The notes beneath the pieces were generated by a model, which saw nothing but the letters and a program-made list of their open reading frames with translations, had not been told where the DNA came from and searched no databases. Below, piece after piece: positions 2,787 to 59,492 of a stretch of 64,000 nucleotides of DNA. The translations under genes and the position numbers were made by a program. The first letter of the stretch is position 1. Each line of letters starts with the position of its first letter. Source of the DNA: Puccinia triticina. Lineage: Eukaryota > Basidiomycota > Pucciniomycetes > Pucciniales > Pucciniaceae. Location of the stretch: the NCBI RefSeq assembly GCF_026914185.1, contig NC_070570.1, positions 1,798,001-1,862,000 of the forward strand, written 5' to 3'.

Positions 2787-4071
2787 ATGCCTCAAGAAGG
2801 TAAGTTTGCTTGATCGGACCATCTAATTCTGACACCCTTCCGCAAGACCCAGCTGACTGAGTGCTCCAGATCCAGTCCTCGTTGGTTTTAACCGTCTGAT
2901 GAACAAATACGAACCGGCATTCTATGGGCGATGGACGTATGATTCCAATTCATTCGAAGGAGCTTTCTCGGCCCTCTCGGTCGATCAAGTCAAAGCACAT
3001 AAAAAACTCTTGGATTGGATGCATCGTTCCCTTCTACCACGACTCCGCGAGCAATTCAAAACCCTCTCAGTATCGCTGCTCCCATCCGTATTCTGGAAAC
3101 AACCGGAGAACACGCGCAAGCTCATCTTAGAAACCCAGTCAGAACTCGACAACACGACAGACACAGTCAAATCTATCATCGCTAGCATCTGCCCAGCATG
3201 CACAGGGCCGATGGTGTCCGCGCCAGAGCGAGCAGATGATCAACACCTCAAAGGTTTAAAATCTTACAGGCTTCAACTTCTCAAGCCCAGCTTCAATAAT
3301 GATGTGGTGTACCATATCAATAAAGTTTGTACTTCGGCCCATGAGCTCTTTCAACAAATCAAGCTCGCACCGGACGCAGTGAGACCCGACAAGTTTGACG
3401 GATGCTCTTATAGAAAAGTGTTCATCCAGGACGTAGGCCTTGCCTTCGAAGCGATCGATGCAACTATCAAAATAATAGAATCATCTGAGCTCGATCTTGC
3501 CCAAGAGCAATGGGTTTATGCGTTCCCTCGTATCGATGAGACGATCTGGGATATCATCCGTACCGCCAATCGACTCCAATCCCAAAGATCAAGAGAACCA
3601 CAAAATGTGCACGTCAGGAAAGCTGCCGAACTCGCCAAACTCTCAATACCAATGATGAAGTTGATCAAGATTTTCTTTAACAAGATTTCGAAACGAGGAA
3701 TCAATCAAAAACGTCTCTCAACTTACAGCAAAATGAGTTCGGAACAGATCGACTCTCTAGCCCATTCGCTTGATAACTCCCGCGGAGATCTCATCGAACT
3801 GCAACTACTATTTCCAAAAATTAGTGAAAATGGCTTTAGCGCTGCGACTAGCCGTGAGGCCATAAGAATAGCGGACCAAATCAAATCTGGCTTGGAAACT
3901 ACTCTGTCACTTGTACTCTTGTACTGTCTTGCTTTGATCAAGCACACCGACGGTTTTGAATCACGCGATTACTACAAAACTTGGTTTGATGGTTGGAGCA
4001 CAGCCTTCGATCTTGCCATTCGGAACTTTAAATGTCTTGCCAAAAGGCTTGACCCCACTCCCCGATCTTAA
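2787..4071 (+). CDS. tandem-family protein, copy 1 (function unknown)
   Basis: Two exons, 2787-2799 and 2870-4071, are split by a 70-nt GTAAGT...CAG intron (2800-2869) in phase 1. The product is 404 residues, starting MPQEDPVLVGFNRLMNKYE. This start was chosen because all copies in the array keep the same ATG, the 13-nt exon and the intron phase, and because splicing joins exactly into the long frame. The protein looks almost wholly alpha-helical and has no signal peptide or membrane segment. Conserved blocks across copies include KLLDWMHRSLLPRL near residue 50, DDQHLKGLKSYRL, DGCSYR, LAQEQW, KAAELAKLSIPM and ESRDYYKTWFD near the C-terminus. I do not recognise a named domain. It appears intact and is the best reference for the family in this window. 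Confidence 0.85.
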
Positions 4072-4936
4072 TCTGTTTTTTCTTCTCTTTTCTTTTCTTT
4101 GCACAACCGCCTGAAACCCCGTAGACTATACAATGTGTATGATTCAAAAACTTAATACGTCTTTCCAAAAAAGTTGACTTCACTCCCTGTTAATTAGGTT
4201 TTTCTTCTTATCTTTTTCACTCTTGATGTACGTCTGTGTACCTAAAACAGCATTAATATTAGTTGACACCAAAGACAGATGATAATTCGGTCTTTTAATC
4301 CCTAGCCTGTGTTTTTGATGCCTTGCCTCAGCGTCCATCCCAGCTCTGTTGCAAAGAACTAATCTTTCGAGGTTTTTCGAACTCATCATGACATCATCGT
4401 GATACATACCAGTCCGTCACATAATTTATGAAGGCTGCGCTTGGGCGTCCGGGCCCCGGGCTCAAGCATGGGAAGTCATCTTTCCTTCTACTTCGGCGTA
4501 GCTTATTGCTTGACGGCATCTCAAAAAAATGAAGGGAGGGAAACTTGAAAGGCAAGATGTGCTGTATGCAGATAGCTCTCCGTTAAGATCCTCTCAGGCC
4601 AGTTCACCAAGGAGGATTGGTGCGTCCTCGGGTATAAATTTACTGGCCCAAGCGAGGAGCCAAGTTAGCCATTGCCCTCCCCCTAACTTAACCAAGTCCC
4701 TCTATTGGGGACGCCTCCTTCGGAGGTCGCTTCGCTCCCCCGAGGAGGGAATTAGCCAAGTTAGGCCCTCCCCCGCGGGCCAACCGCGTATAGAGCGTAT
4801 TTAATCAGTCTCTTCTCTTTGTCGTGAGGAGTAAGCTTTATTGTAATCTTAGTACAAAACAATCGACTTTATCTGCTCAACCTGCCCTCACACTTCGATT
4901 TCCTGTGACAAAACCAGCTGGGATTACAGAGAGGAC
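4072..4936 (+). promoter_or_regulatory. intergenic spacer and upstream region of copy 2
   Basis: The first ~370 bp are a 3' flank shared with copies 2 and 3 (CGTCCATCC, then AACTCATCATGACATCATCG). Next comes a GC-rich hairpin-bearing stretch (CCTCCTTCGGAGG near 4708). The shared GGCCCAAGCG element is at 4645-4654 and a TATTTAA box at 4798-4804, 139 bp before the ATG at 4937. I see no other gene. Confidence 0.5.
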
Positions 4937-6219
4937 ATGCCTCAAGAAGGCAAGTTTGCCTGTTCGGGCCATCCATCCTGACTTCTGTGAACCCTCGCTG
5001 ACTCCGTGATCACATTCCAGATCCAGTTCTTGTTGGGTTTAAGCGCCTGATGAACAAATATCAACCATCAGATTCATGCGATGGACGGTCACACGATGAT
5101 AATTCACCAGACGGAGCTCCCTTATCTCTCTCTCTTGATCAAATCAAATCACACAAAAAACTCATTGATTGGATGCATCGTACGCTTCTACCACGGCTTA
5201 AAGAGCATTTCGAGACCCTCTCAGCATCGCTACTCCCGTCCCAATTCTGGAAACACCCGGAGAGCACGCGCAAGCTCATCTTACAAACCGAGCAAGAACT
5301 CGAAAACACAACAGACATAGTCAAATCCATCATTGTTAGCATCTGCCCAACCTGTACCGAGTCATTGATGTTCCTGCCAGAGCGAACGAACGATCATCAC
5401 CTCAAAGCTTTAAAATCTTACAGGCTTCGACGTCTCAAGCACAGCTTTCATGGGGATGCAATGCACCGTATCCATAGAGTTTGTACACAAGCCCATGAGC
5501 TCTTTCGACAAATTCAGCTCGCACCCCAGGAAGTGAGGCCTAATAAGTTTGACGGATGCTCTTACAGAGAAAATTTCATCAAGGGCGTACGCCTTGCCTC
5601 TCGCTCGATTGATGCAACTATTCAAGTGATAGCATCCTCTGAGCTCAATCTTGCCCAGCACCAATGGGCTGTCGAATTACCTCGCATGCATAAGACAATC
5701 TGGGGCATCATCAATACCACCAATCGACTGCAAACCAAACGGGTAAAAGGCCCACGAAGTCTGCAACTCCGCCAAGCTGCCGAACTCGCCAAACACTCGG
5801 TACCGATGCTCAAGTTAATCAGGATGTTCTTTAACAAGATTTCGACACACGGGATCAATCGGGGTCGATTTCCAACTTACACTAAAATGAGTTCGGAACA
5901 GATCGACTCTCTCTCCCATTCGCTCACCGCCATCTGTGAAGACCTCGGTGTTTTAAAACGACTGTTTCAAAAAATTGAAGAAACTGGACTCGGCGCTGCG
6001 ACTGGTCGTGAGGTCATAGAGATCGCTAACAAGATGACATCTGGTCTGGAAACAACCCTACCCCTTGTACTCTTACACTGTGTTCCGTTGATCAAAGACA
6101 CCGAGCATTTCGAATCGCGTGATTATTACAAAACTTGGTTTGCTACTTGGAACACTGCCTTTGATTCAGCGACTAACTCTCTCGCCAAAATCTTGGCTAG
6201 ACTTCCTTATAATAATTAA
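4937..6219 (+). CDS. tandem-family protein, copy 2 (GC-AG intron)
   Basis: Exons are 4937-4949 and 5021-6219. The intron is 4950-5020 (71 nt) and the product 403 residues, MPQEDPVLVGFKRLMNKYQ at the start. The intron sits at the same place and phase as in copy 1, but its donor reads GAAG|GCAAGT, so splicing must use a GC-AG pair. GC with an otherwise perfect AAGT context is the common functional exception to GT. The long exon is uninterrupted and keeps the family blocks (LIDWMHRTLLPRL, DDHHLKALKSYRL in its N/H variant, DGCSYR, KMSSEQIDSL, ESRDYYKTWF). It is about one unit (2150 bp) from copy 1. The function is unknown, and it is likely expressed if the GC donor is used. Confidence 0.82.
4950..5020 (+). 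other. non-canonical GC-AG intron
   Basis: The donor is GCAAGTTTG and the acceptor TTCCAG. All other family members have GT at this position, so a T-to-C change in the donor is the simplest history. Confidence 0.75.
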
Positions 6220-7320
6220 ATAGGTCCTTGTCCTTTCCTTGCACAACTGAAACCTTGTGGACTTAACAATTTGTTTGATTTAGCAATAATAAATATAGAT
6301 GTCTGACCAAAGAAACTGCACGTTACTCCCCCTTAACTAATTTGTTCTTCTGTTGTTTCCACTCGTGATGTCTAACTTCATGATCATCAAAGCAGGACCA
6401 ATGTAGACTTGTCTTAGAGAATAGTAAATCATGATTAAAGCTCTTGTCGTCATTGTCTTCGGCCCAATTTTGCCCCAGTTTCCGCAATTGATGCAACTTG
6501 TAGCCGGCCGGACTTTGGCCAGGCGTCCATTGGGTGGAAAGATGGAGACTCGTCTGTACTCTTCTGGACCTGTCTGAAGACCGTCCAGGGGTGATGAAAA
6601 TTTGGTCTTTGAACTCCTACATAGCCTGTCTTTTTTGATGCCGTCCATCGGCGTGCATCCAAGCTGTTTAAATACCCAAGAACCACCCTTTCTTGGTACA
6701 TATTCCGAACTCATCATAACATCATCGTAATACCTTTTTATTGGATTAATGTTTGAAGGCTGTACTGCTCTCAAACATGGTGACGTTTCTTTTCTCCCGT
6801 TTCACAGTTGCAACTTGCAAGTCAAGGCAAGGAACGCCAAGATACACGTTACACACGCCGTCTATTCAAACTTCATGTCGTTATTGCCTTGGGTAATTTG
6901 TTGATGACACAGAGGACCGGGAATATGCAAGATAACTACACACAAGTCACGACCAGCGGGCCAGGAAAGGGGTATACACCAGAATCGGAGGGGAGCATCC
7001 GATGAAAGAGATCCAATACATACAGGGGAGATAAGAGAGAGCAAGAGAAGGCTGATACGGTGACACCTTTCTCGGATGCCGTCCTGGAGGCCGGCAAAGC
7101 AAGCTGTCTCGGAACTCTGAAGGGGCGAAATCCAGATCGGAGCATCAAAGGGGTGGGATTTGACCGGCCCAAGCGGTACGCGGCGTGCATATTTAAACCA
7201 ACACTTTTCTCCGGAATCATCTGTCCATCTTCCTATAATAATCGAAATCATATACCACACCTACACTCCCCTTATCCTTCAAGAGCCCCGTCACAAACCA
7301 GCTGGAAAATCAGGGAGAAT
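6220..7320 (+). promoter_or_regulatory. spacer and upstream region of copy 3
   Basis: The 3' flank of copy 2 (shared block near 6640-6730 with CATCATAACATCATCGTAAT) is followed by an upstream region similar to that of copy 1. It has GGCCCAAGCG at 7166-7175 and TATTTAA at 7190-7196, 131 bp before the ATG at 7321. I see no additional gene. Confidence 0.5.
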
Positions 7321-8601
7321 ATGCCTCAAGAGGGTAAGTTCGATTGATTGGGCCATCTCATGCTGATTTCTGCGAACCCCAGCTGACCCAGTGAACACAC
7401 TTCAGACCCAGTTCTCGTAGGGTTTGACCGCCTTATCAAAAAACACGAACCATTATACTCTGAGCCGTGGACGTTTGGTATCAACTCTCTCGACGGAGCG
7501 TTCTCAGCCCTCTCTCTTGATCAAGTCAGAGCACACAAAAAACTCTTGGATTGGATGCACCGTTCCCTTCTACCACGACTCAACGAGCAGATCCGGACCC
7601 TCGCAATATTACTGCTCCCATCGGATTACTGGAAAAATCCAAAGGAAACGCGCAAACTCATCTTACAAGTCCAGTCGGAACTCGACAACACAACAGACGC
7701 AATCAAATCAATCATCACGAGCATCTGTCCAACATCTACAGGGCTTGCGCAAGAGCGAACGGATGATCAACACCTCAAAGGTTTAAAATCTTTTAGGCTC
7801 CAACTTCTCAAGCCCCGCATTCACAATGATTTGCTGTACCATATCAACAAGGTTTTTTCTCTGGCTCATGAGCTCTTTCAACAAATCAAGCTCGCACCGG
7901 ACGCAGTCAAGCCCGATAAATTTGACGGATGCTCTTACCGAAACGATTTCATCAAGGACGCATGGATTACCTTTCGCGGGATTGATTTAACTATCAAATT
8001 CATGGAATCGTCTGAGCTCGATCTTGCCCAAGAACAATGGGTTTTCCAGTTTGCTCAATTGGACAAGACGATCCGGGGCATCGTGCGCACCGCCAACCAA
8101 CTCCAAAGCAAACAAATAAATAACCCGAAAAATCTGCAAGTCAGGAAAGCTGCCGAACTCGCTAGAATCGCAATACCGATGACCAAGTTAATCAAAATGT
8201 TCTTCATCAAGATTTCGAAAGAAGGGATCAATCAAAGACGCTTTCCAACTTACACGAAAATGAGTTCGCAACAGATCCAGTCTCTAACTCATTCGCTTGA
8301 CACCTCCGGTGAAGATCTCCTCGCGCTACAATCACTGCTTTCAAGAATCGGAGGAAGCGGGTTTGGCGCTGCGAATAGCCGTGAAGCCATGCAAATCGCC
8401 AACAATCTCAAATCTCGTGCCGAAACCACTTTATCCCTTGTACTCTTGTACTGCGTTCCTTTGATCAAGAACACCGACGGTTTCGAATCACGTGAATATT
8501 ACAAAACTTGGTTTGATACTTGGAGCGCCGCCTTTGATTTAGCCACTCGTAACTTTAAATCTCTCGCCAAATACTCGACTTCACTCTATGATCTTGATTA
8601 G
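7321..8601 (+). CDS. tandem-family protein, copy 3 (function unknown)
   Basis: Exons are 7321-7333 (ATG CCT CAA GAG G) and 7406-8601. The intron is 7334-7405 (72 nt, GTAAGT...TTCAG, phase 1), and the product is 402 residues. Joining the exons gives MPQEDPVLVGFDRLIKKHE, then GAFSALSLDQVRAHKKLLDW, so the true start is 75 codons upstream of the first internal Met of the long exon's conserved part. The family blocks KLLDWMHRSLLPRL, DDQHLKGLKSFRL, DGCSYRNDF, LAQEQWVFQF and ESREYYKTWFDTW are all present. The frame is intact. No signal peptide or known domain is visible. Confidence 0.85.
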
Positions 8602-9591
8602 TTTGTTCTTCTCTTTTCTTTCATAGCCGAAGCCCGGTAGACCTTATAATGTGCTCGGCTTAGCCATTCACAACTTTCAAGCTCTCGTCGAATACTACCA
8701 GAAGACTCCACTCTGTGTTCCTGATTAGTCTTTTCTTCCCTTGTCTTTCATAACCAAAGCGCTGTAGACTGTTCAATGTCCTCGATTTAGCCATGGTTAA
8801 CTCCATACATCTTACCAAAAAAAAACTGGAATTCACTCTCTTCTCTTCTTTCCACTCTTGATGTATATCTAACTACAAAACCTGGACTATTATTTAAAAC
8901 TATATGGACTTGTCATTCGGAATACGAAGCCAAAATCAAAGCTCTTGTCATCAACGACTTGCGCTCAAGTTACCGCAAGAGATCATGGCAGCTTTTGTGT
9001 GGCTCAAGCCACGACAGTCGAGGCACTTGTCAGTGAGGGAAGGCAATCAAGTCGGCTGTCCAGCGGGCCGCCTGAACCCGCCCGGGCTTCGGCCGGGCGC
9101 GGTCCTCCTTTTAGTGTGAGTTGCCTGAGACCATCTCTCAAGAGTCGAAGGGTGATGAAAAGTTGGTCATTGAATTCTACATAGCCTGTGTTTTTTGATG
9201 CCGTCCATCGGCGTCCATCCCAGCTACCAAATAACAATAGTTTCTTCTTGGTTTTTCAAACTCATCACAACATCGCAATACCACCCGGCTTTTTTTCCGT
9301 TAATTTTTGGAGGCTACGCTTGACCGCCCGGGCACAAGCATGGTGACTTTTCTGTTGCACCGTTGCTTTCTGCTTGACAGCATCTCTTACTAAACTGAGT
9401 CAAGGGAGGGAAACCCATGATGCAACGTAGACAGCGCATAAAACTGGGGGTTTTCCAAGATCCAGGGGGGACAGGCGCGTCATCGAACGTCATCGGGTAG
9501 ATTTATCATTTGGCCGGCCCAAGCGAGGGACTAAAAGAGGTCGGCCTTGGCCTGCGCGGGCCACCGAGTATGAATTTAAACTGTCCTCTCT
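8602..9591 (+). promoter_or_regulatory. 3' flank of copy 3 and upstream region of copy 4
   Basis: The shared 3' block recurs (GATGCCGTCCATCGGCGTCC near 9200-9220). A copy-2-like upstream region follows, with GGGAGGGAAAC near 9403, GGCCCAAGCG at 9516-9525 and a TATA-like GAATTTAAA at 9572-9580. The region is cut at 9592 by a transposon that separates these elements from the copy-4 start. Confidence 0.5.
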
Positions 9592-10237
9592 CAACAATGG
9601 GCCTATACTATACTCTACAATAACTGGGACTTTCTGTTATAGTATAGGTCTGGTTGTACCACCCTATACTAATAACTGTACTAGTATTGGCCCTTGATCC
9701 AAGTGGCCCGTATAGTATTCTGTGTTTTTTTACTGAAACAAAAAATGCAGGTATAGTAACTTTTTTCACCCCTGGTTACCGCAATAACGCACTTAACCAG
9801 GTGTACGCATAAGGCAATGAAATGGGGGCTCCTGATGATTTTGCAGCCAAACCATTCCACTTACCTGGTCCTTGCGCTAATAGCACAGGATTATTTAGGA
9901 ACACCGGGTAGCTCTTGTTCTCTGCGGCTGCAGATGTGTGTGGATCCAGATGTGGTAGTTTGTTTCCTTCAAGTATTTCACAATCCGTCAGCAGCCTTAT
10001 GTGGCTTTGTGAGGATTTTCCCCTCTCAATGGACTTTGCTGAGGCTGGAAAGGCTTTGGGTGCTCTGATCCCCAAGCCCAAGAAATAGATAGATTTTCAT
10101 CCCTACAACATGTTGGAATATATGCTTCAAGCCCCATTTTGAGTGGCCAAGCTATATGATCTACTATCCAAAAATCACCAGTAAGACCAACTGTGTGTTT
10201 AGCTTGCACTACGGGGAAATAGGTGTTGTTGCGGCCC

Positions 10238-10331
10238 GCAGCGTCACCTGACGTTGCATTTGGGGTTGCGGCCGCAGTGACTGCGCCTACTTGCGCAGTC
10301 ACGCGGGCTTGCAAAGACAGGGTGACGCTGC
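10238..10331. repeat. nested GC-rich hairpin inside the transposon
   Basis: The outer arms are GCAGCGTCACC (10238-10248) and its exact reverse complement (10321-10331). The inner arms are GTGACTGCGC (10277-10286) and GCGCAGTCAC (10293-10302) around a 6-nt loop. Confidence 0.8.
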
Positions 10332-10359
10332 ATCCCGCAGTGACAGCTACATGCCTGTA

Positions 10360-10425
10360 GTGTCAGTGGTATAAGAGCAGCTCTCATGAATGTAGAAGGT
10401 CGTGGGTTCAAATCCCACAACACAC
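10360..10425 (+). repeat. tRNA-like (SINE-type) segment
   Basis: It has an A-box-like TGTCAGTGGTA (10361-10371), a CTCATGA anticodon-loop-like stretch and a good B box GGTTCAAATCC (10405-10415) within a GTGGG/CCCAC T-arm. The two would-be acceptor strands do not pair, so this is not a functional tRNA. It is more likely a tRNA-derived remnant. Confidence 0.45.
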
Positions 10426-10775
10426 AATTCTTTCCACCTGATTCAACACAAAGTAGTGGTACTGGCCACATCTGGCCAGTATAGTATTAAGATTTTTTTT
10501 GTTTCTTCCTTCATTTGGATATAGTATTCTCCAAAAAGAAAAAAAACCTGATGTATTTGGATATATTATTAAAAATCCATTACTGAAAATGGAAATAACA
10601 ATACTGTTATTGGACCAAAAAAAATATGATAACAATACTATACCAATATCTGTATAGTAAAGGCCCATTTTTGCCTCTCTGTTCTCGCGTTGGAACAGGT
10701 TGGAACATCTACCATCAACCTGACCGTTTACTTTAAGATTCCCGTTGCAAAAGCAGCTGGAATATCAGGGAGGAC

Positions 10776-12040
10776 ATGCCTCAAGAAGGTAAGTTTGCCC
10801 GTCCGGACCATTGTTCCTGACCTCTGCAAACCCCCGCTGACTCAGTGACCACACTCCAGATCCAGTTTACCTTGGGTTTAAACGCCTGACAAACAAGTAT
10901 GAGTGAGGGCCGAATGCTGAAAGTTCATTGGAAGAAGATTTATCCGCCCTCTCTGTTGATCAAGTTAAAGCACATCAAAAACTCTTGGATTGGATGCATT
11001 GCTCTCTTCTACCACGGCTCCGCGAGCAAATCCAGACTCTATCAGTATCACTACTCCCCTCCAAATTCTGGAAACAGCCAGATGAAAGGTGCAAGCTGAT
11101 TGTACAAACCCAGTCAGAACTCAAGAAGACAATAGACAAAATTAAATCTATCATTGCCAAAATCTCCCCAATGCCTACAAGACGGAAGGTGCTTGCGCCA
11201 GAGCAAACAGATGATCAACACCTCAAAGGTTTGAAATCTTATCAATTTGAGCGTCTCAAGCGCCGCTTCAATCATGATGCAATATACCATATCAATGAAG
11301 TTTGTGCTCTGGGCCATGTGCTCTTTCACCAGATCAAACTTGCACCTGCCGTAGTGAAGCCTGCTCAGCTTGATGGATGCATTTATAGAAATGACTTCAT
11401 CAAGGACGTACGCTATGCCTCTTACGGGATCAATTCAATTATCAAATCAATAGAAGCCTCCGAGCTCAATCTTGCCCAAGAGAAATGGGCTGTCAAGCTA
11501 CCTTGTATCAATGAGAAAATCTGGGAAATCATCCACGCCGCCGATATACTCCAAACCAAACAATCAACTGAACCAGAAAATCTTCAAGTCAGGAAAGCTG
11601 CCAAACTCGCCAAACTCTCAATTCCGATGATCAAGTTAATCAAGATTTTCCTGACCAAGATTTCAAAACAAGGGATCAATCAAAAACGGTTCCCAACTTA
11701 CACAAAGATGAGTTTGGAACAGAATAACTATCTAGCCCATTTGGTTGCCATCTTCGGCGAAGATTTCAAGAGCCTACAACTACTCTATCCAAAAATTGAA
11801 GCAACTGGGTTTGGCGCTGCGACTAGCCGTGAGACCGTACAAATAGCCAATGATATTGAATCTCATGTGATAACTACTCTATCCCCTGTCCTCATGTACT
11901 ATCTTCCTTTGATCAAAGACACCAATGGTTTTGAATCACACACTTATCACAAAACCTGGTTTGATAGTTGGAGCTATGTCTTCAATTTAGCCACTTTTAA
12001 CTTTAAATATCTTGCCAAACAGGTTGAACCCACTCCCTGA
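10776..12040 (+). pseudogene. tandem-family copy 4, nonsense-disrupted
   Basis: Exon 1 is 10776-10788, the intron 10789-10859 (71 nt, GTAAGT...CAG) and the long exon 10860-12040. Splicing gives MPQEDPVYLGFKRLTNKYE and then TGA at 10904-10906, codon 20. After that stop the same frame stays open for 377 codons with all family blocks (SALSVDQVKAHQKLLDWMH, DDQHLKGLKSYQ, KAAKLAKLSIPM, KTWFDSW). The lesion is therefore one codon in an otherwise complete copy, plausibly CGA to TGA. No ATG upstream of the conserved region restores the start. The promoter is also displaced by the 1.08-kb insertion. Readthrough, or initiation at a later Met such as the one in LLDWMH, cannot be excluded. Confidence 0.8.
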
Positions 12041-12528: not shown

Positions 12529-12529
12529 A

Positions 12530-13560
12530 CAGCCATTCTTGAAAATCTTGCAGCTCCAGCACCCTGTGAATCCAACAAACAATTTTTTTTCAGCCCCCCG
12601 GCCTGTATTCTTCCATATCTTTGTATCTTCCACCTCCTTCCATCTCTCCTTCTCTCCCATACCCCCACCCATGCCCCCATCAAAATGCCCCCCGACCCAG
12701 CCCCGCCTCCCAGCCCGATTGGACCCAACCACATTCCAGCTGGACCGCCAGCCAGCCATCCTGGATCCCGATCCCCAACCCAAGGGTGAAAGCGCAGCGC
12801 AGCGGTTTTGATGGCCGCTGCGCTGCACTGAAAGTAGCGGCCCCGCCTGCTGCGCTACCGCTTTTTGGGTCTGGCAAGAAGCGGGGACCTGCTACTTTCA
12901 GCGGTAGCGCAGCAGAACCATCGCTGCGCTACCGCCTTTTGACCTGGCCGCGTAGTGCTCCCCCGCTGCCAGCCAAAAAAGCGCAGCGCAGCGCAAAGCG
13001 CAGCTGTTTTGGTGGCCGCTGCGCGGCGCTGAAAGGAGCGGCCCCGTCCGCTGCGCTACCACTTTTTGGGTTGGGGAAAAAGCGGGCCCCCGCTATTTTC
13101 AGCGGTAGCGCAGCGGGACTGGCGCTGCGCTACCGCTTTTTGGGCTGACCGCGCAGCGGTTCCCCGCTGCGCTGCGCTAAAAGACCGCTTTTTTGTAGCA
13201 CAGCGCACGTTTCAGCCTTGCCCAACCGCTTGCAACACTTTTCGCCACTGTCGGTGAGTCCCCATCGCATGCTCCCCCTTCCCCCCCTGGGCCATTGAAT
13301 CTGCCTGATCTGCTTGTCCCTACCGCAGTTTCAGTCCTCCCGGTTCCCCAACCACACCAAAAAAAAATTCCGTTGCCGGTGAGTCATGCTGGGGTTTTTT
13401 AAAGACTGCTATCAATTGCTCTCACCCCCCCTTCATTTTTTCCTAACCCACCTGTCCACAGATATTCTGCTCCAGGTTGCCAAGATAAAGCCGTCCGTGT
13501 CCGCAATCAACCCAACCGGACACCTTGTTGGAATCATGGTATGTATGATGATCAACTCTC
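12530..13560 (+). mobile_element. Tc1/mariner-type element, 5' part, copy A
   Basis: The segment starts CAGCCATTCTTGAAAA. It is a diverged plus-strand duplicate of the minus-strand segment 19135 to about 18590, running through the same coding pieces (MPP.KCPPTQP..., then ILLQVA.IKPSVSAINPT) and the same GTGAGT/CAG intron signals. A 440-bp element is inserted at 12781. Downstream of about 13520 the two copies diverge. The base pair left of the terminus is GA rather than the expected TA, so this end may be degraded. Confidence 0.6.
12781..13220. mobile_element. GC-rich MITE with 7-bp TSD (copy 1)
   Basis: The element starts CAAGGGTGAAA and ends TTTCAGCCTTG, flanked by perfect 7-bp repeats CCCAACC (12774-12780, 13221-13227). 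The homologous empty site is present in the other copy of the host transposon near 18890-18905 (minus strand CCCAACCGCTTGC), with a single CCCAACC. The interior is built of GCGCAGCG-rich sequence with no coding capacity. A sibling with the same termini lies at 39478-39867. Confidence 0.85.
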
Positions 13561-24575: not shown

Positions 24576-25889
24576 ATGGTTGAATCACCCGGTTCACCTT
24601 CATCCAGCAGGCTGGAACATCAAAGGCTCTATTGGCACTATGGAGGTATGTATTCCATCGACCGAGACTATAGACCCAATAGAACTGAAATCCATGAATT
24701 CACTTTATTTAGATCTAGTTACTTACGGATTCAAAAGTCTGCGTAGTAAATATCAGACCAAAACGGCTGAGCTCACCGACAAAACATATATCGAACACAC
24801 CCTCTCGGGTTTCTCTATTGACAAAGTTAAAGCACAGGAAGCCCTCGCGAATCAGTGCATTCTAGCCTTCTGCCTCTTCTGCAAGACCAGATCACCTCTC
24901 TCTCGCTAGCGCTAGACCTCTTCGGCTTACAAAATGAACCAAAAACGAAGCTCATTCGCGTCTTACAGATCCAAGCGGAACTCGACTACAGTTTGGATCA
25001 AATTATGCATCTCATTGTCATCCTATGTCCAGAGCCCACATCTCTGCCAAATCGATCCAATGATCATTATCTCAAAGCATTCAAAACATATAGACTTGAG
25101 CGCCTGAAAATGAATTTCGAAGAAAGACTAACCCGGCGCATGTGTGACCTATTTGAGGCGGCCGATGAACTTATCGAACAGATGGAACTCTCGTCGGCAC
25201 CACCCTGCATATCCAGTTGGGGCATCAGTTCTCACGCAAAACGATTACAAGGTTTCGTTGGTCAAGTATCGGATGCGATCAAGATGATGACAGACTGTTT
25301 CCGCGCATCTGAGCTCGCTATTGTCCAACATTTCTGGAGATCTGACAGACTTTCCATAGAAAGCCACCTGCAGTCTCTCATTGAGAACCTCAATACACCA
25401 ACCGATTCAACAACCGTCGAGGACCAGTCACCGCGTCCCGCCAAATTTGCCGGTGAACCACTCATCCAACTAGCAAGATTAGCAATACCAATCTTTAAAC
25501 TATCCAGGATTTTTTTCGCCAAATTATCGAAACGTGGCTTGGCTCAGGAACGTCTTCCAATCTCCACGGAGATCTCTTCCGACCAAATTGACACTCTGGC
25601 TAGGTCCGCTTCACATGTCGCCAAAGATGTCTACAAAATTCTGACACATCTACAGCTTGTTAATCGGGGCAACATGGATGTTACTCATGAAGCTTTCAAC
25701 ACAATAGCACAATCGCTTAAAGCTCGTTTTGAGTCCGTTTTGTTTCTCGTTCGTTTGTATTTTATTCCTTTGATTCCAAAAACTGATGGTCTCAATGTGC
25801 AAAATTATTATAAGAGATGGTGCGTTACTTGGACCAATCAGATGTCTTTAGCAATTCATAACTTTACAGAACGTTCCCAAAATAGTTGA
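24576..25889 (+). pseudogene. tandem-family member 5, diverged and frameshifted
   Basis: Exon 1 is 24576-24645 (starts MVESPGSPSSSRL), the intron 24646-24712 (67 nt, GTATGT...TTTAG) and the long exon 24713-25889. The intron position and phase 1 match the array: G plus AT gives Asp, followed by LVTYGFKSLRSKYQ, which aligns with PVLVGFNRLMNKYE. The frame runs to ALANQ and breaks near 24855. One base is missing just before TGCATTCT, where the other copies read ATGCAT. The remaining frame (HSSLLPLLQDQI through FTERSQNS) aligns over the full family length, including DHYLKAFKTYRL, ISSDQIDTLA and NYYKRWCVTW. It is much more diverged than the array members. If the missing base is a sequencing error, this would be an intact gene of about 415 residues. 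Confidence 0.75.
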
Positions 25890-37671: not shown

Positions 37672-38091
37672 AACCAGATGATGCTCAGATTTGGCCCTGG
37701 CCCAGCTGATGCTCAGCTTTTACCCTGGCTCAGCTGATGCTCAGTTTTTTCCATGCCCCAGCTGATGCTCAGCTTTGGCACCAGCCACTTGATGATCATC
37801 TTTGGCCCTGGCACAGCTGATTCTCAGCCTTGGCCGTGGCTCAGCTGATGCTCAGCCTTGGCCGTGGCTCAGCTGATGCTCAGCCTTGGCCGTGGCTCAG
37901 CTGATGCTCAGCCTTGGCCGTGGCTCAGCTGATGCTCAGCCTTGGCCGTGGCTCAGCTGATGCTCAGCCTTGGCCGTGGCTCAGCTGATGCTCAGCCTTG
38001 GCCGTGGCTCAGCTGATGCTCAGCCTTGGCCGTGGCTCAGCTGATGCTCAGCTTTGGACCTAGCCTAGTTGATTTTCAGCTCTGTTACTGT
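37672..38091. repeat. 28-bp satellite, CAGCTGATGCTCAGC core
   Basis: Eight 28-bp units run 37814-38037; the last seven look identical (CAGCTGATGCTCAGCCTTGG CCGTGGCT). Degenerate units flank them on both sides. Each unit contains GCTGATGCTCAGC, itself a mini inverted repeat (GCTGA/TCAGC). Confidence 0.92.
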
Positions 38092-39911: not shown

Positions 39912-40130
39912 GCTGATGCACAGCTGTGGACCAGCCTTGGATCAGCTGATTCTCAGCTGTGGACCAGCCTTGGATCAGCTGATTCTCAGCTGTGGACCAG
40001 CCTTGGATCAGCTGATGGTCAGCTCGGGACCAGCCCTGCCTCAGACAATTCTCAGCTGTGGACCAGCCTTGAATCAGCCAATGCTCAGCTTTGGACCAGG
40101 ATTGGCTCAGCTGATGCTCAGCTTTTGAAA
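39912..40130. repeat. 33-bp tandem repeat
   Basis: About six copies of CTGTGGACCAGCCTTGGATC AGCTGATTCTCAG. This is a longer relative of the CAGCTGATGCTCAGC satellite. Confidence 0.88.
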
Positions 40131-41700: not shown

Positions 41701-41960
41701 AAATCTTTGGAACAGTATTGTCCCAGCTGATCTTCAGCTCTTCAAAAACCTTTTCCAAGATGATGCTCAGCTTTGGACTATTTTTGGCTAAGCTGATGCT
41801 CAGATTTGGAATATTTTTGGTCCAGCTGGCACTTGGCTTTGTATCAGGCTTGGAATAGCCAATTCTCAGATTTGGCCCAGGCTCAGTCAATGCATACTGC
41901 TTAGCTTTTGATGAGCATCAGCTGTTCCTGGGAAAAATTTAGGATCAGCTGAATGTGCCA
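41701..41960. repeat. degenerate CAGCTGATGCTCAGC satellite
   Basis: Several spaced copies of AGCTGAT(G/C)(C/T)TCAGCT(T/C)T, related to the arrays at 37.8 and 39.9 kb. Confidence 0.65.
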
Positions 41961-42140: not shown

Positions 42141-42864
42141 TTCCTGAAATTTTTACAATTTTCAGGGAGTGCGCGGCGGGCTTAGTAGGAAAATCCTTGC
42201 TAGCTGAATAACTTTTTTGTTACAGTTTCAATCAGTCTAAAATTTCAGGGATTTTTAAACTCTGTATTTTCTCTGTGCCCTGAAATTTTGAGCAACGGGG
42301 TGGCATAAAAACATGAGATATAAGGGGTGTGCGGCAGTCTTAATAGGAAACATATGTCTAATTGGATAGTTTTTTTGTTACATGTCACAGCAGTCTAAAA
42401 ACTTCAGGGAACTTTCAAATATGCATATTCTAATTACCCTGAAATATTTAGCAATTTTATGGCTTCAGAACCTGAGATTTAAGGGATGTGCAGTAGTCAT
42501 AATACCTACTAGTGCACACCCCATAGAACTCATGTTCTGATGCCAAAGAATTGCTAAAGGTTCAAGGGCACAGAGAATATGCATATTTGAAAGTTCCCTG
42601 AAGTTTCTAGACTGCTGTGACATGTAACAAAAAAACTATCCAATTAGACATATGTTTCCTATTAAGACTGCTACACACCCCTTATATCTCATGTTTTTAT
42701 GCCACCCCATTGCTCAAAATGTAAGGGCACAGAGAAAATACAGAGTTTGAAAATCCCTGAAATTTTTAGACTGATTGAAACTGTAACAAAAAGTTATTCA
42801 GCTAGCAAGGATTTTCCTACTAAGCCCGCCGCACACTCCCTGAAAATCCTACAAATTTCAGGGA
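42141..42864. repeat. 724-bp foldback with ~350-bp arms
   Basis: Left arm 42141-42492 and right arm 42513-42864 are diverged reverse complements. Examples are TTGTTACATGTCACAGCAGT against its inverse near 42610-42630, and TTTTGTTACAG against CTGTAACAAAA. The loop is about 20 nt. There is no coding sequence. Confidence 0.85.
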
Positions 42865-45002
42865 ATACAAAACATTCACGATTATAAGTGCCCTGAATTT
42901 TTTGTGTGTCTGTTACATGTAACAAAAAAGTTATTCCTTAGTATGTACCCCAGAAAAGGGGGTATGCAAAAAATAATTAATTCATTAAAAAATAGTTTTT
43001 TTGTAGTTCTGATTGCATGATAATTATGTTCATCATTTTAGATGAATTTTGATATTATTTGCGTTGCGTAGAAATGAGTAGAAAAAAAACCCGGGTACGT
43101 ACACGGAAAAGGGGGTACGCAAAAACCGGGTACAGAGGCGGAAAAACCGGGTACATTTATTAACCCCCTATAATTATTAATTACAGGGAATTAATTTGGT
43201 GTAAAAAGTAGGTGGTAAGTGCTTAAACTGATTGGCTGCTTGACAGGGATTTTTGATGATTCAAAGGGTTTAATCCAGTGGATTTTGCGTGCTGAGGGTG
43301 GTTTAAAGGGAAAAGGGGCTACAATAGTAGCAGGGAGAATTTTCACGGCAAACTTACAGTTTATTAGGCGGTGAAATGTCTGGGGGACCTTTTCCTGGGG
43401 GCCAAATAGGCCGCTATTTATAGAGGGGACTTCAGTGGGCGCAACCACTAAGTCCTTTTCTCCCTATGGGAGTATCCTGGAGTGTAGGCGTGAACAATGC
43501 TTGGCTGTGGGCAATTTATTTGTATTACTATAGTCTGATTTCCCTGACTCTGTCACATGACATGTTTATAACCAATTGTGATGTGAAAGAGCTTCAGTAG
43601 AAGACTACATAATGTTTTCACAGGGTATTTTTACACAAGTAACATTACTCTTTTATGTACTGTAGTTTATTTTTAGGTACTTTATTTATTTTACTAATTT
43701 TTGTATGTAATCCTTTTTTGGGCACATTTTATGGCCAATTCTTATTATACAATATGTATATGAAGGAGTAGGAATAGAGGGTTACTTTGAGTGGGTGACC
43801 CCCCTTAAAATAAGGCAAGGAATTCTTTTCTGCAATAACATTTAAGTATTTACAATTATTTATTGCAGCCTTTTGGATACCTGTAATATCTCTAAGGCTG
43901 ACACAGCCTGTCAAAAAAATCTTACAGTCCACACACTCATAGTTTGAGGGGCTGGATATCCAGAGAGCTTTCTCATCCTGCAATCTACCAACTTAGGATC
44001 CAGAACTTCCAGAACCTCCACAACCCCAGATCCCAGACTCCATCTTCCTCTCCACATAGTAGACCATAACAAAGTTCCCAGGTGGGGTGATTTTTGAACT
44101 ACATGCTTATCCTTCTTATCAGTACTGATAGTGATGAAGTGGTGTCATCTTCATCCCCAGGGATTTGACTCTTTTCCTCAAAAATCCTGCCTGCTTCATA
44201 TTCCTCTCCCAGTACAGATTGACGGATATTTAAACTGCTGGGGATGGCAAGCACACTGCTAGATGTAGCCATTAGTTTAATTCCTTTGGTTCTGGAGTGC
44301 TGAACTCCCCCTGAGGAGCTCTGCTTGCCGGGGAAGGGGAGTTGGGTCCCCGCCTCCAATTTGTTTTCTGTTGATGAGAGCTGACGTCAGGTACAATATA
44401 GGTGAGCTGACGATGGTGTGGGTTACAGGTTTGGTCTACATGGACCTGCAGTGCTAGAAGTGGAGGAAGTGGGCGGATTCCCACAGTTGTTGTGGTTTGC
44501 ATGAAGAAAAGGTGTGCCTATTATTTGTCAAGAGATTCATGAACAAATTGGCCGTCATTGTCGACATTCGGGGATGGACTGAGGAAATCAGTTTACCATC
44601 ACATTTCACACCACAGCGGCTTTGTCAAAGCCGGTGAAACTCCCAATGACAAAGGCTTTGTAGCCAACAACACAGTGTGCGCCGCATGGCAGCCGCGCCT
44701 TTAGGGCAGAACCAGCGCATGCTGCGCACCCATACGCCTTTGGCGCCAACCGACTTTAGGTAACTACAAAGCTACTCTTTGTGATTCTAACTTGTTTTCG
44801 TTTCTTCTATATGAAATAAAGTTGCAGTACCTTGAATTCTTTCGGATTCAAGGATGAATCAACAGAATCAAGTTGGGTTTGAACTCATTCAAGACTTCGT
44901 TCAACGCCTTCCTGGATAAGCCGGACCTGGAGACGATTTCTTCGAGCGCATAGCGCCCGTTAAAATATCTAAAGGCGCTGAGTAATTTCAATGTGACGTA
45001 TG
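42865..45002. other. no gene recognised
   Basis: GGGTAC-rich sequence to about 43160, then AT-rich sequence. A GC-rich GTTT/GGCGCC patch lies near 44620-44760. Nothing coding is supported. Confidence 0.4.
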
Positions 45003-48000
45003 TCAGTACCAAGATCGAGGAAATTGAGATGGAAGAGGAAAGGAGATGGGATTAGGAGAAGGTAGGAGAGGGAGACTCAACGAGTTGAAAGCTCTGATCT
45101 GAGCATCGGTTTTTTCCGCGCAGATTTCGTCGAGCCATTTCTGTTCAAGAGCAGTAGCTTGACCGGGTTCGCCAATGATGCTGTCAGCGAGGAGGTCGAC
45201 CTTATGGGGGAGCAGGATGAGGCCAGCGGGGGCGGTACCATCGGAGCCTTGATCACGGGCATGGGGTTCGCTGAGGGCGGAGAAGTCGGACTGGACGGAC
45301 TGCTGGCGCAGCCGGCGACGATGCTCTCGGCCGAAGTCGTCGGAGCTCGCGATCGAGGTCAGCGAGCGCGGCTGGAGCGACTGGGTGAGCCGGGAGTGGC
45401 GGCTCAGGCCGTCGGGCACCGAGCTGGGCTGCTGGGTTGTCAATGACCGCTCGGAGGTCATCCCCTGCGGCTGCGGGCTCTGGATGGTCATCGACTCTGC
45501 CCGGTTGGCTTCAGAGGTTGTCCTCTTAGAGCCCGATTCCGAGAGCGGCTGGTAGCGGCTGTCAGAGGGTAGCGAAGAGGAGGCCTGGGCGGTCTGGGAG
45601 CTGCTTGGATGGGCTCGGTTGCGGGTCTGGGAGCCTGGCGAAAGCGAGCTCTGCTCGTCAATCTCCTCGTTGTATTCCTCGCTCCCCTTCTGCTGCTTCT
45701 GCTCTTGCTCCCACAGGGCAACCTTCATCTTCGTTTCCCGGTCGATCTTGATCCGCACGTGTGTCCGCTCCCTCAGCAGTAAGTCCCGCTTTAATAGCCA
45801 CACCAGTACGGCCATCGACTCCGACTTCTCCAGGTTCGGGGCCAGCATAGGCAGGATGCTCGAGAACGGCTGGCGCGATCGTTGGCTGATCAACGAGAGT
45901 ATCATCACCAGGTGCGGCAGGTTCGGAAACGTGCTCGAGAATTCGTGCTGGAGCCGCGAGATCGGGAGTCGATCCGGAGAAATTGCTGATGGGTCGGTTT
46001 GCGGGGGACAAGTTAATTGATAGGAATTTCGTAGGGTGATCATGTCCGTCAACTTTGCTTTCCTCCAATACAGCAAGTGGTCCGTCATCTCGGCTATTGT
46101 GCTGGAATCGGTGTCTAGTAAGAACTTGTACTCAGAAAGCCTGCAATGCACATCGTAAGGGATGATAACAGAGCGAGAGAATTAGAATCGATCGGATTGT
46201 TCGAGGTAACATGGCAACATACGCACGTCAAGGCGGGCTTGATGATTGCGATAAAGTCGCGCAGGAGACTTCCGGGCGCAGTTTGCTCGATCAAGACTTG
46301 GGGATCTTCAAGGAGTAGCAGACTTTTCCAAGATTCCAAATGGGCGAACCGATCCTGATCCCCAGTTTCGGGTGAGGGAGTTTTGACACTATTAGCCAAG
46401 AGCCAATTCTCGGGGACAGTATTACTATCCAATAGCTCGCGATGAAGGAGTAAGTCGAGGTCGAGCTGATGATCGAGGGTGATACTCGTACTGCCGAGAG
46501 TCTTGAGGTCGTCGAAGGTCCGCGCCAGAGCCCGGGCAAGGTCCGAGCTCTGCTCGACAAACTCCATCATATCTTCGATCTCCGGCTGCCTTTTTTGGCT
46601 GTTGCTCCGGCTGGAATATGAGCTTCTTCGTTCGGACAGTTTGCGCATGATTAGTTGGACTTCCCTGGTGAGATACGAGCTCTCCCGTTCCAAATGCTTG
46701 AGTGCTGCTGTCAGCTTCAACACCACATCCCTGTAGTAGACTTCGAGGTGCTGTGAGAGGTGAGAAGCGGGTGGGGTATCGATTATCAAGGCCAGGGTGA
46801 AGGACTGCAAGGGTGCCAGCTGAGCAGACCGAGCTGGTAGGGTCTCATTGGGCTGCTGTCTCTCATCGTGCCTCGCAGTCGGCGCTGCTGTGAGGAAGCC
46901 ACACATGGGCGAATACGGGATGGGATTGTACCGGTCCCGGATATTAAACCGGGCCGGCAGGGCTACGGGAGATGGACTGGAATTGCTTCGAGTTGACGCG
47001 GAGGAGCGAGGGTGCAAAAAGACGCGGGTGGAGGTGTCGACAGGGGTGATCGAAGGCGTCATCATCCTCGTCAGCTGGGATATTGGCGCCGGGAGGGGCG
47101 GCTTGCAGGGAGAGGAGGATGAGTTTGGCAGGGTGGCGAGTGGTGGATCGTTGAGGTCGAGTGTATTGAGATCGATTTCATCGGTGGTTGAGAGGGGTGG
47201 CTCAGCGGACGAGGTCCGGGGAGCGGATGTGTGAGTGGGAAGCGCTGGCTTTAAGAAGGGGGATTGAGAGTTTGGCTTATTGGGAGAAACCGGCGGGGAG
47301 CTCTGCATCCCCTTTTCACCTGACCTGGTCCTCGTCCGGCCTCGTTCCATCGAGCGCTCGGGATTGGTTTGACTCATGGTAGGCTTCTGGTTGACCAGGA
47401 CGGGGTGTGCGATGATAGCCAAGGCGTCGATGACCAATTCCAACTTCCGCCCGCTGGCCATCCCCTTGGGGGTGTTCAGGTGTTGAGCGCCATGGATTCG
47501 AGGGGTGAGCATATCGGCCCACTCGTCCGGCTCGAAGCCAAGATAGCTCGTCCTCCTCCTCGGTGATGATTGTTTGTTGGATTTTTTCGCACTGAGGCGG
47601 ACCGAATCGGAATGATGGCTTTCGTAAAACAGGCCTGGGAACCTCGAATCATCGTCCTCATCGTCGAAGTCGTTGGGCTCATGTCGGCTAGGCTTGGGCA
47701 GGCCGGAGGAGCTGGAGCTGATGATTCTCCGGGAGATGGGCTGCTTGAAGGCTCTGGGCGAGGCTTCGTCTGAGGAGCTCTCGCCGTAATGGCCGTCCCA
47801 AAGATCCGATTCTTGCACGCCCCGCACGAACCGATTGCCGTGATGGTCGCGATGATCGGTCCAGTGAGCCCCATGGGCGTGTTTCTTGCCCGAGTATAGG
47901 CTCGGGTCGCTTCCACAGATGCGCGATTGCTCCTGCTTGTAGACCGGCCGATCTAGCCTCGGCGTCGGTTGCGGCCGGGGAGGCCACGCAAAAGCGAGAG

Positions 48001-48342
48001 AGGGCGAGGACTGATCGGCTTGGGTGACGAGCATGACCGCCAGTAAGCTGCTCATGATGGATGGGCGTTGCTGAGAGAAAGACCGGTGGTCTCCAGTGGC
48101 GTCAATCGAACGCGATGGATTCACTGGGACGGTAGGATGTCGTCAGTCTCTTGGATGATACTAGTGATGGCGGAAGTCACTTGCTCACCGGATCCACTGG
48201 ACCAATCGGAGACGAAGAAGCCAACGAGTGTCTCGATAATCGCCTTCGTTCCATGCTGCCGAGTGGTTGGTGTTGGCTGGTTGGCTGCTGACTGCTGACT
48301 CTCAGTGCGCACGACGATCCGCTCCGGAACCCCAGATGGCAT
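45003..48342 (-). CDS. NPR3: NPR3, GATOR1 / SEACIT subunit
   Basis: Nitrogen permease regulator 3 acts with Npr2 and Iml1 on the vacuole or lysosome to inhibit TORC1 when amino acids are low. Exons (minus) are 48342-48189, 48123-46227 and 46140-45003, with introns of 65 nt (48188-48124) and 86 nt (46226-46141). Phases agree and give 1062 residues. The family hallmarks are SLLAVMLVTQADQSSPSLAF (N-terminal longin-like region), FTLALIIDTPPASHL followed by HLEVYYRDVVLKLTAALKHL, EYKFLLDTDS, and FPNLPHLVMILSLIS near the C-terminus. Long Ser/Pro-rich inserts separate them, and a Ser/Gln-rich stretch lies before the C-terminus. The start is uncertain. ATG at 48055 (MSSLLAVML) would match the usual family N-terminus and give 988 residues. 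Confidence 0.85.
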
Positions 48343-57961: not shown

Positions 57962-59492
57962 ATGTCTCAGCCAACCAGCCCACCCACTGCAGCCTCAATC
58001 CAAACACCATCGCAGGACGAAGGGGAAAAAACGAATCTGGAGCTAGTCCAAGTCTTACCAGGTATAGCAGTCAGTCCTCTGGTCTCGTAACTCTCACGAA
58101 TGAATAAGAAATATATCTGATTGTTTCTACATTCAGGTCACAACGATCGAGCATGGTCCGTCGCTTGGCATCTCACTCGTCCGATATTGGCCTCATCGTC
58201 TACAGACAAACAGTTACGACTCTATCAATACCATCTCAGGCCGAATTTCATAGACGGGTCGGACTCCAAGCTCGAGTTTCAGTACATCGATTCCATCCCC
58301 AGCGCTCATACTCGTACCGTTAGATCCATAGATTGGTCTCCAAAGGGAGACCTTTTGGCTTCTGGCTCTTTCGATTCTACTGCTTCGATTTGGTCGAGCA
58401 ATCATTTCGAGCAAAAAGTCAACCAAGCCGGTCTGAACTCGGAAGACGAATCAGGAAGGCCTAAATCACCCATTCTAGATGGAGAGGAAGAGGGAGAAGA
58501 GAGCTGGGAGTGTTTGATGTCACTCGAAGGCCACGAGAGCGAAGTGAAAGGTGTCTCGTGGAACCGAAACGGAAATCTATTGGCTACTTGCTCTAGGGAT
58601 AAGAGTGTTTGGATTTGGGAGATCCTGATCGGAAATGACTCGCAGGAAAATCACAACGTTATGCAAGATGATGAGGGCTACGAGGTCATTTCAGTTCTCA
58701 TGGAACACGAACAAGACGTCAAATCGGTTTGTTGGTCACCAGTAGAAGATCTGTTGTGCTCGACCTCCTACGACAACAATATTCATCTGTATGCCGAAGA
58801 TGTCACTGCCGATGGGGATTTCACCTTACTCCATCGTCTCAAAGGCCATCAATCTACTGTCTGGGACGCCAGCTTCTCACCCTGTGGCGAATACTTGGCG
58901 TCCTGCTCAGACGACCTATCGATTCGGATCTGGCACCGTGAAAAGCTCGCTCAAGGTGGAGTCGAAGGAAGAGATGGAGGTCTTACTGGGGGGTGGCGAA
59001 TTGGTCGTAGTGAAAGAGAACGATGGACATGCGTCTCTGTGCTATCTGGTTATCATTCTCGGACGATCTACTCCCTGGATTGGACGTTTGCTACGGTTCA
59101 TAACCAAAACGAGTCGCAATGTCTAGGTATGATCGTGTCTTGTGGCGGAGACGGTATTATCAACGTGTTGAAACTTGTAAGCTTCATGACCATCTGATCT
59201 TTAAACTCAGAACAATTCAAGTAATCGTCTTTTAACCGGCATGTACCAGTCGAAGGGTATTCCGGTCTCTGGCCTGGACATTTCGTCTGCTCAGCCGGAC
59301 GTTGTTCTTTTGGTGCAACGGAAAAAGGCGCACGGGACTAGCGATATAAACGATGTTGCCTGGTGTAAAGTGAAAGCTTCCAACAAATCGACCGATTTGG
59401 ATCAGTCTGATTGGCGGACAGGTGTCCACCGACTCTTCGCTAGTTCCGGTGACGATGGATCAATCCGCGTTTGGAGGATCACCGAAACATAA
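57962..59492 (+). CDS. CIA1: CIA1 (CIAO1), cytosolic Fe-S assembly WD40 protein
   Basis: Exons are 57962-58061, 58137-59176 and 59250-59492. The introns are 75 and 73 nt, phases agree, and the product is 460 residues. CIA1 is the seven-bladed beta-propeller of the CIA targeting complex (with Met18 and Cia2) that hands 4Fe-4S clusters to cytosolic and nuclear apoproteins. Visible WD features: HNDRAWSVAWHLTRPILASS, HTRTVRSIDWSPKGDLLASG with STASIW, HESEVKGVSWNRNGNLLATC with DKSVWIWE, HEQDVKSVCWSPVEDLLCST, HQSTVWDASFSPCGEYLASC with LSIRIW, YHSRTIYSLDW, and FASSGDDGSIRVW at the end. The order and the first-blade AWSVAW...KQLRLY pattern match CIA1 rather than generic WD proteins. It is somewhat longer than yeast Cia1 (about 330), with acidic inserts (GEEEGEES). 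Confidence 0.9.

Follow-up and report, generated by a model that had tools for sequence, protein, structure and literature searches.

The question raised by the window studied here (the whole stretch of 64,000 nucleotides of Puccinia triticina, contig NC_070570.1, positions 1,798,001 to 1,862,000) is what kind of gene forms the four tandem units at 2,787 to 12,040, each beginning with an exon of only 13 nt, and why it was multiplied. An earlier note, made from the sequence alone, described a tandemly duplicated rust gene family with an all-helical protein; the family, the duplication and the helical protein were all borne out. We consider it fairly probable that the array consists of members of a very large and old family of ordinary spliced genes, whose proteins have the fold of GCIP/HHM/CCNDBP1, are most likely its remote homologues and serve as intracellular adaptors or repressors, and that the tandem array has been kept by selection.

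Gene structure and the ancestral intron

In this family a gene consists of a short first exon that varies between members, a single intron whose position is ancestral, and an exon of ~1.2 kb. In a motif search of the window, with at most one mismatch allowed, the 13-nt exon 1 of the array (ATGCCTCAAGARG) was matched exactly at the four starts given in Table 1, against a chance expectation of 0.19 with one mismatch allowed. Successive starts are separated by 2150, 2384 and 3455 bp, and the last spacing becomes 2366 bp when the insertion between copies 3 and 4 and its 7-bp duplication are subtracted (3455 - 1082 - 7), as the earlier note had it. All four introns are phase 1 and the splice joint reads G/AT or G/AC (Asp). 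The long open frames behind the exon 1 motifs run over 2857-4071, 5002-6219, 7387-8601 and 10907-12040. The exon and intron layout previously proposed for the four units stood for exon 1 and the introns but not for exon 2 of copy 4, which is broken by an in-frame TGA 15 codons from its beginning; copy 4 is therefore likely to be a pseudogene or truncated. Similarly, the flanks reported as shared are alike only in patches in the self-comparison of the window (~25-45 bp 5' of the start codon, plus outer blocks, e.g., 6564-6665 / 9125-9225).

The array units are very probably real spliced genes, judging from their sequences and those of database models. Two P. triticina models, P0001 (PTTG_26996; 96% identity to copy 1, with an internal piece absent) and P0002 (the copy 3 counterpart, with a different C-terminus), begin with MPQED, i.e., the 13-nt exon joined to exon 2, and the acceptor position is conserved in the family. 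In an alignment of 89 members (A2; 85 rows after removal of duplicates and of frames <330 aa, plus the four window frames), CAG or TAG fell precisely at the codon boundary used by the array in 64 of the 82 rows scored, seven rows gapped at the key column having been dropped; the mean over 60 other offsets was 1.9 and the next best offset gave 17. On this alignment, the intron position is ancestral to the family. First exons with a phase-1 donor, 13-154 nt long and followed by introns of 62-106 nt, were found by a simple rule for 29 of the 64, the same rule finding none for 35. Since first exons vary over this range and the P. striiformis protein P0012 (MTKRD) would also fit a 13-nt first exon, the tiny exon of the array stands at the lower end of the length range of first exons in the family.

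Size and distribution of the family

Far from being the local matter presented earlier, the array belongs to a family with at least 166 loci, spread over all 18 contigs of the genome searched (122,823,596 bases). This number is a lower bound: seven protein queries led to 186 places carried over, which merged into 166 loci, and only the best candidates were scored. The loci are partly clustered, 105 of them lying in 29 groups (gaps <50 kb). When 80 of 138 planned regions, plus ten fetched earlier, were read (some were fetched twice), 103 of the 111 frames of at least 200 aa in their DNA, the four window frames included, matched a family model. The database matches comprised 27 distinct proteins, all labelled hypothetical or uncharacterised or left nameless, and every one of the 24 carrying an organism name was from Puccinia; the family was found in four Puccinia species.

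Earlier large rust-specific families, the largest having 249 proteins as far as described in PMC4071342, are likewise uncharacterised and expanded in rusts (PMC4071342). The present family, which might be the same as that one, now has an assigned fold and shows no obvious signal peptide. No literature naming any of six family genes was found, and nothing on this rust family was among the matches listed by broader title searches.

Two members on contig C12 (1630734-1631957 and 1680848-1682071), of opposite orientation, equal score and equal frame length, lie ~50 kb apart, which suggests a recent inverted duplication.

Probable remote relationship to GCIP

The earlier note recognised no domain in the protein, but both the predicted fold and some weak matches at the sequence level suggest GCIP (also named HHM or CCNDBP1), a human regulator of cell division and gene activity whose partners in animals are cyclin D and helix-loop-helix (HLH) factors. 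The predicted models of two distant family members have the two-domain all-helical fold of the GCIP structure (PDB 3ay5). Both ranked 3ay5 first, nearly full-length and at least 3 Z units above the next row, with the two helical bundles (PF13324 and PF20936 in GCIP) superposing over nearly the whole length; identity was only 10-13%. By sequence, the N-terminal half followed by the C-terminal half was matched weakly in one locus, L087, and in the proteins P0019, P0021, P0022 and P0023. Moreover, in the L087 clade an acidic stretch separates the two halves, as in human GCIP. L087 remained below the curated cut-offs of Pfam (26.6 vs 27.5 bits for PF13324 and 25.8 vs 36.2 bits for PF20936), GCIP_N reaching 27.5 bits only once neighbouring matches were added, and the Pfam search gave neither the two halves in succession in P0024-P0027, P0016 and P0017 nor any GCIP match in the window copies. 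The family is therefore not a Pfam GCIP member but likely a remote relative.

At E <=0.01, five Pfam matches were seen among the 89 members where about one was expected by chance, two of the five being GCIP; single weak matches to Lipase_bact_N, COG4_N and PPP4R2 (E 0.005-0.009) were taken as chance. A second PF13324 match in the genome (L100) was discarded, lying in low-complexity sequence. Pfam and NCBIfam scans gave no usable family for the window copies. When the PDB was queried by sequence, A2 and A3 brought up flagellins, designed helical proteins and a flavodoxin but not 3ay5; L087 alone gave one kinetochore chain (E 1.1), and Foldseek found no significant match. The genome yielded no separate canonical GCIP gene, although a gene interrupted by introns could have escaped the search, and no literature linking "cyclin-D-interacting" to Puccinia or fungi was found.

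It could be argued that a rust-specific helical-bundle family has merely converged on the bundle type of GCIP, talin and vinculin, with no common origin with GCIP. We regard this as unlikely, if the least unlikely of the alternatives: relatives belonging to three Puccinia species, and one further protein, matched the two GCIP halves in the same order as GCIP, and the distant members' models placed 3ay5 so clearly first. The bundles of the talin rod, HIP1R/Sla2 THATCH, vinculin and alpha-catenin mostly matched one bundle at a time, or with a large root-mean-square deviation, and families of these types were absent from the Pfam matches of the 89 members at E <=0.01.

Most likely the proteins, like GCIP, stay within the cells of the fungus and serve as adaptors or repressors without enzymatic activity, attaching to helical stretches in their partners. 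GCIP binds cyclin D, Grap2 and HLH proteins, and any such binding by the rust family is predicted at most. The two also differ in number, with at least 166 loci in one rust haplotype, whereas GCIP is not known in high copy number outside Puccinia.

Evolution and selection

In a quick tree of 106 rows, supported by the Shimodaira-Hasegawa-like approximate likelihood ratio test (SH-aLRT) only, copies 1-4 formed a P. triticina-only clade (99), beside separate clades of P. striiformis (four rows, 92) and P. graminis (three rows, one of them without a species label, 100). With clades thus separated by species, each lineage seems to have duplicated the array locus independently, unless gene conversion made the copies alike. 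The array would then have been built up through tandem duplications once the P. triticina lineage had separated from the other wheat rusts, a history that gene conversion could mimic. Some other subclades mix species, and the family therefore predates the species split. The fifth relative reported downstream is indeed a family member, but it belongs to another subclade, grouping with PTTG_26999 and one P. striiformis protein, and is 28-34% identical to the array copies (matching part 24855-25886). Synonymous divergence (dS) for the array duplications was 0.42-0.62, so the duplications are old, and the earlier wording that the gene "is expanding" was too strong, even though the copies group apart from their P. 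striiformis and P. graminis relatives.

Copies 1-3 are under purifying selection, the ratio of nonsynonymous to synonymous divergence (dN/dS) being 0.37-0.54 at dS 0.52-0.57 in the comparison that the earlier note had proposed. The remaining frame of copy 4 gave 0.44-0.57. Positive selection on the array itself was rejected, dN/dS being <1; the array would have been kept by selection, with copy 4 decaying. Among 18 close pairs of the family (identity >60% in A2) the median dN/dS was 0.46, and the two youngest gave 1.80 and 1.31, neither significant alone (p 0.055 and 0.27).

One part of the protein departs from this pattern. In 13 pairs sharing no gene (five of the 18 were dropped for a shared gene), the ratio of nonsynonymous to synonymous differences (pN/pS) was 0.57 when pooled. 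Of 27 windows of 15 residues in copy-1 numbering, 181-195 was the sole upward outlier, with 98 nonsynonymous and 17 synonymous differences once the pairs had been realigned and codons next to gaps taken out (ratio 1.56, p 3.9e-6 vs the rest; 112/20 and p 9.7e-7 before), while 256-270, 346-360 and 361-375 were outliers downward. Misalignment is unlikely to be the cause because synonymous divergence is low in 181-195. Eleven of the 13 pairs lean toward the excess (p 0.022), the ratio above 1 being itself borderline (p 0.053). The segment spans the start of helix 184-208. It includes the block DGCSYR, which had been called strongly conserved; the block is identical in copies 1-3, and between copies 1 and 3 the segment has no marked excess (7/3 vs 146/92 elsewhere), but family-wide residues 181-195 are the most variable of the 27 windows. 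Duplication followed by change at this helix tip could have given paralogues different partners.

The clustering of the loci, the species-specific array clades, the two pairs with dN/dS >1 and this hotspot would also suit a host-directed effector family expanding in an arms race, at which the earlier note had hinted. A host-directed role of the family is possible, but we think an arms race of this kind quite improbable: neither value >1 is significant, dN/dS among copies 1-3 is well below 1, and no signal peptide was indicated in these copies by a crude hydropathy measure applied to them only (maximum 11-residue mean 0.62-1.05 within the ~40 residues at the beginning of exon 2, exon 1 encoding MPQE). 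Moreover, the exon-1 peptides appeared mostly polar by eye.

Features of the window and its transposon-rich surroundings

Although at least 166 dispersed loci and transposon-rich surroundings might suggest that the genes were captured or domesticated from transposons, or that a transposon encodes the protein, this is hardly credible for a family with one ancestral spliceosomal intron and purifying selection, in 89 members of which Pfam detected no transposon domain, with only 20-43% identity to copy 1 outside the array (41% for the best match over most of its length) and with no internal stop in 94 of the 105 matching rows there. The outcome that the earlier note had named as contrary to its reading, a transposon protein dispersed in hundreds of copies, was thus not observed.

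Table 1. Coordinates of the array and related features in the window.
Feature	Position	Strand	Evidence
Copy 1 exon 1, MPQE + G	2787..2799	+	Exact motif; spliced model P0001 = PTTG_26996 begins MPQED
Copy 1 phase-1 intron, 70 nt, GT-AG	2800..2869	+	Sequence; family-conserved acceptor position
Copy 1 exon 2, intact frame; two-bundle helical protein, GCIP/HHM-like predicted fold	2870..4071	+	
Copy 2 exon 1, 13 nt	4937..4949	+	Exact motif
Copy 2 phase-1 intron, 71 nt, GC-AG	4950..5020	+	Sequence
Copy 2 exon 2, intact frame; database model P0006 = last 252 aa only	5021..6219	+	Open frame, database match
Copy 3 exon 1, 13 nt	7321..7333	+	Exact motif
Copy 3 phase-1 intron, 72 nt	7334..7405	+	Sequence
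Copy 3 exon 2, intact frame; counterpart P0002, P. triticina race 1	7406..8601	+	Open frame, database match
Insertion between copies 3 and 4, 1082 bp	9592..10673	+	Imperfect terminal inverted repeats; CCTCTCT on both sides (7-bp duplication)
Copy 4 exon 1, 13 nt	10776..10788	+	Exact motif
Copy 4 phase-1 intron, 71 nt	10789..10859	+	Sequence
Copy 4 exon 2 with in-frame TGA at 10904-10906; PtA15_13A172 (260-aa model) inside later part	10860..12040	+	Sequence, database match
Fifth relative, 352-aa frame, no N-terminal helix in that frame	24831..25889	+	Open frame, sequence match, tree

Parts of the insertion matched many places in the genome (at least 88 rows, from the best 40 of 406 candidates scored). 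Both of its ends recur as shorter units of ~740 bp, and as its middle (520-850) matched separate places, a second element may be nested inside. A reverse-transcriptase frame upstream of the array (408-1286, + strand; RVT_1, E 6.3e-19) is probably a retroelement remnant, and pieces of 12529-13530, directly downstream of copy 4, recur inverted at 18.6-19.1 kb and 39.5-39.9 kb. Farther on lie a 28-bp tandem repeat of 13.7 copies (37675-38057), 33-bp arrays (39912-40123 and 41755-41828), a 0.7-kb palindrome (42143-42868; 90.5% match to its own reverse complement), two frames with matches to nitrogen permease regulator 3 (NPR3; 45003-48142, - strand) and a frame of a WD40-repeat protein (58121-59197, + strand). 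Window-wide scans found no tRNA genes or Rfam families.

Implications

Set against the 12,737 protein-coding genes given in PMC9927501 for haplotype A of P. triticina Pt15, at least 166 loci would place the family among the larger ones of a major crop pathogen. As described in the same source, that annotation was made on repeat-masked sequence (PMC9927501), and such masking may hide family members. Some database models are truncated (P0006 for copy 2, and P0008), and the conserved intron offers a simple rule for correcting them.

With the fold and the likely remote family, a hypothesis on the function of these proteins can for the first time be put to the test. A bolder version, which we hold to be rather unlikely, is that Puccinia has turned a GCIP-type intracellular regulator into well over 100 recognition proteins, one scaffold diversifying at the helix tip 181-195. 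If this were true, the paralogues might serve, for example, nucleus or individual recognition, or combinatorial control of HLH and cell-cycle factors across the rust life cycle.
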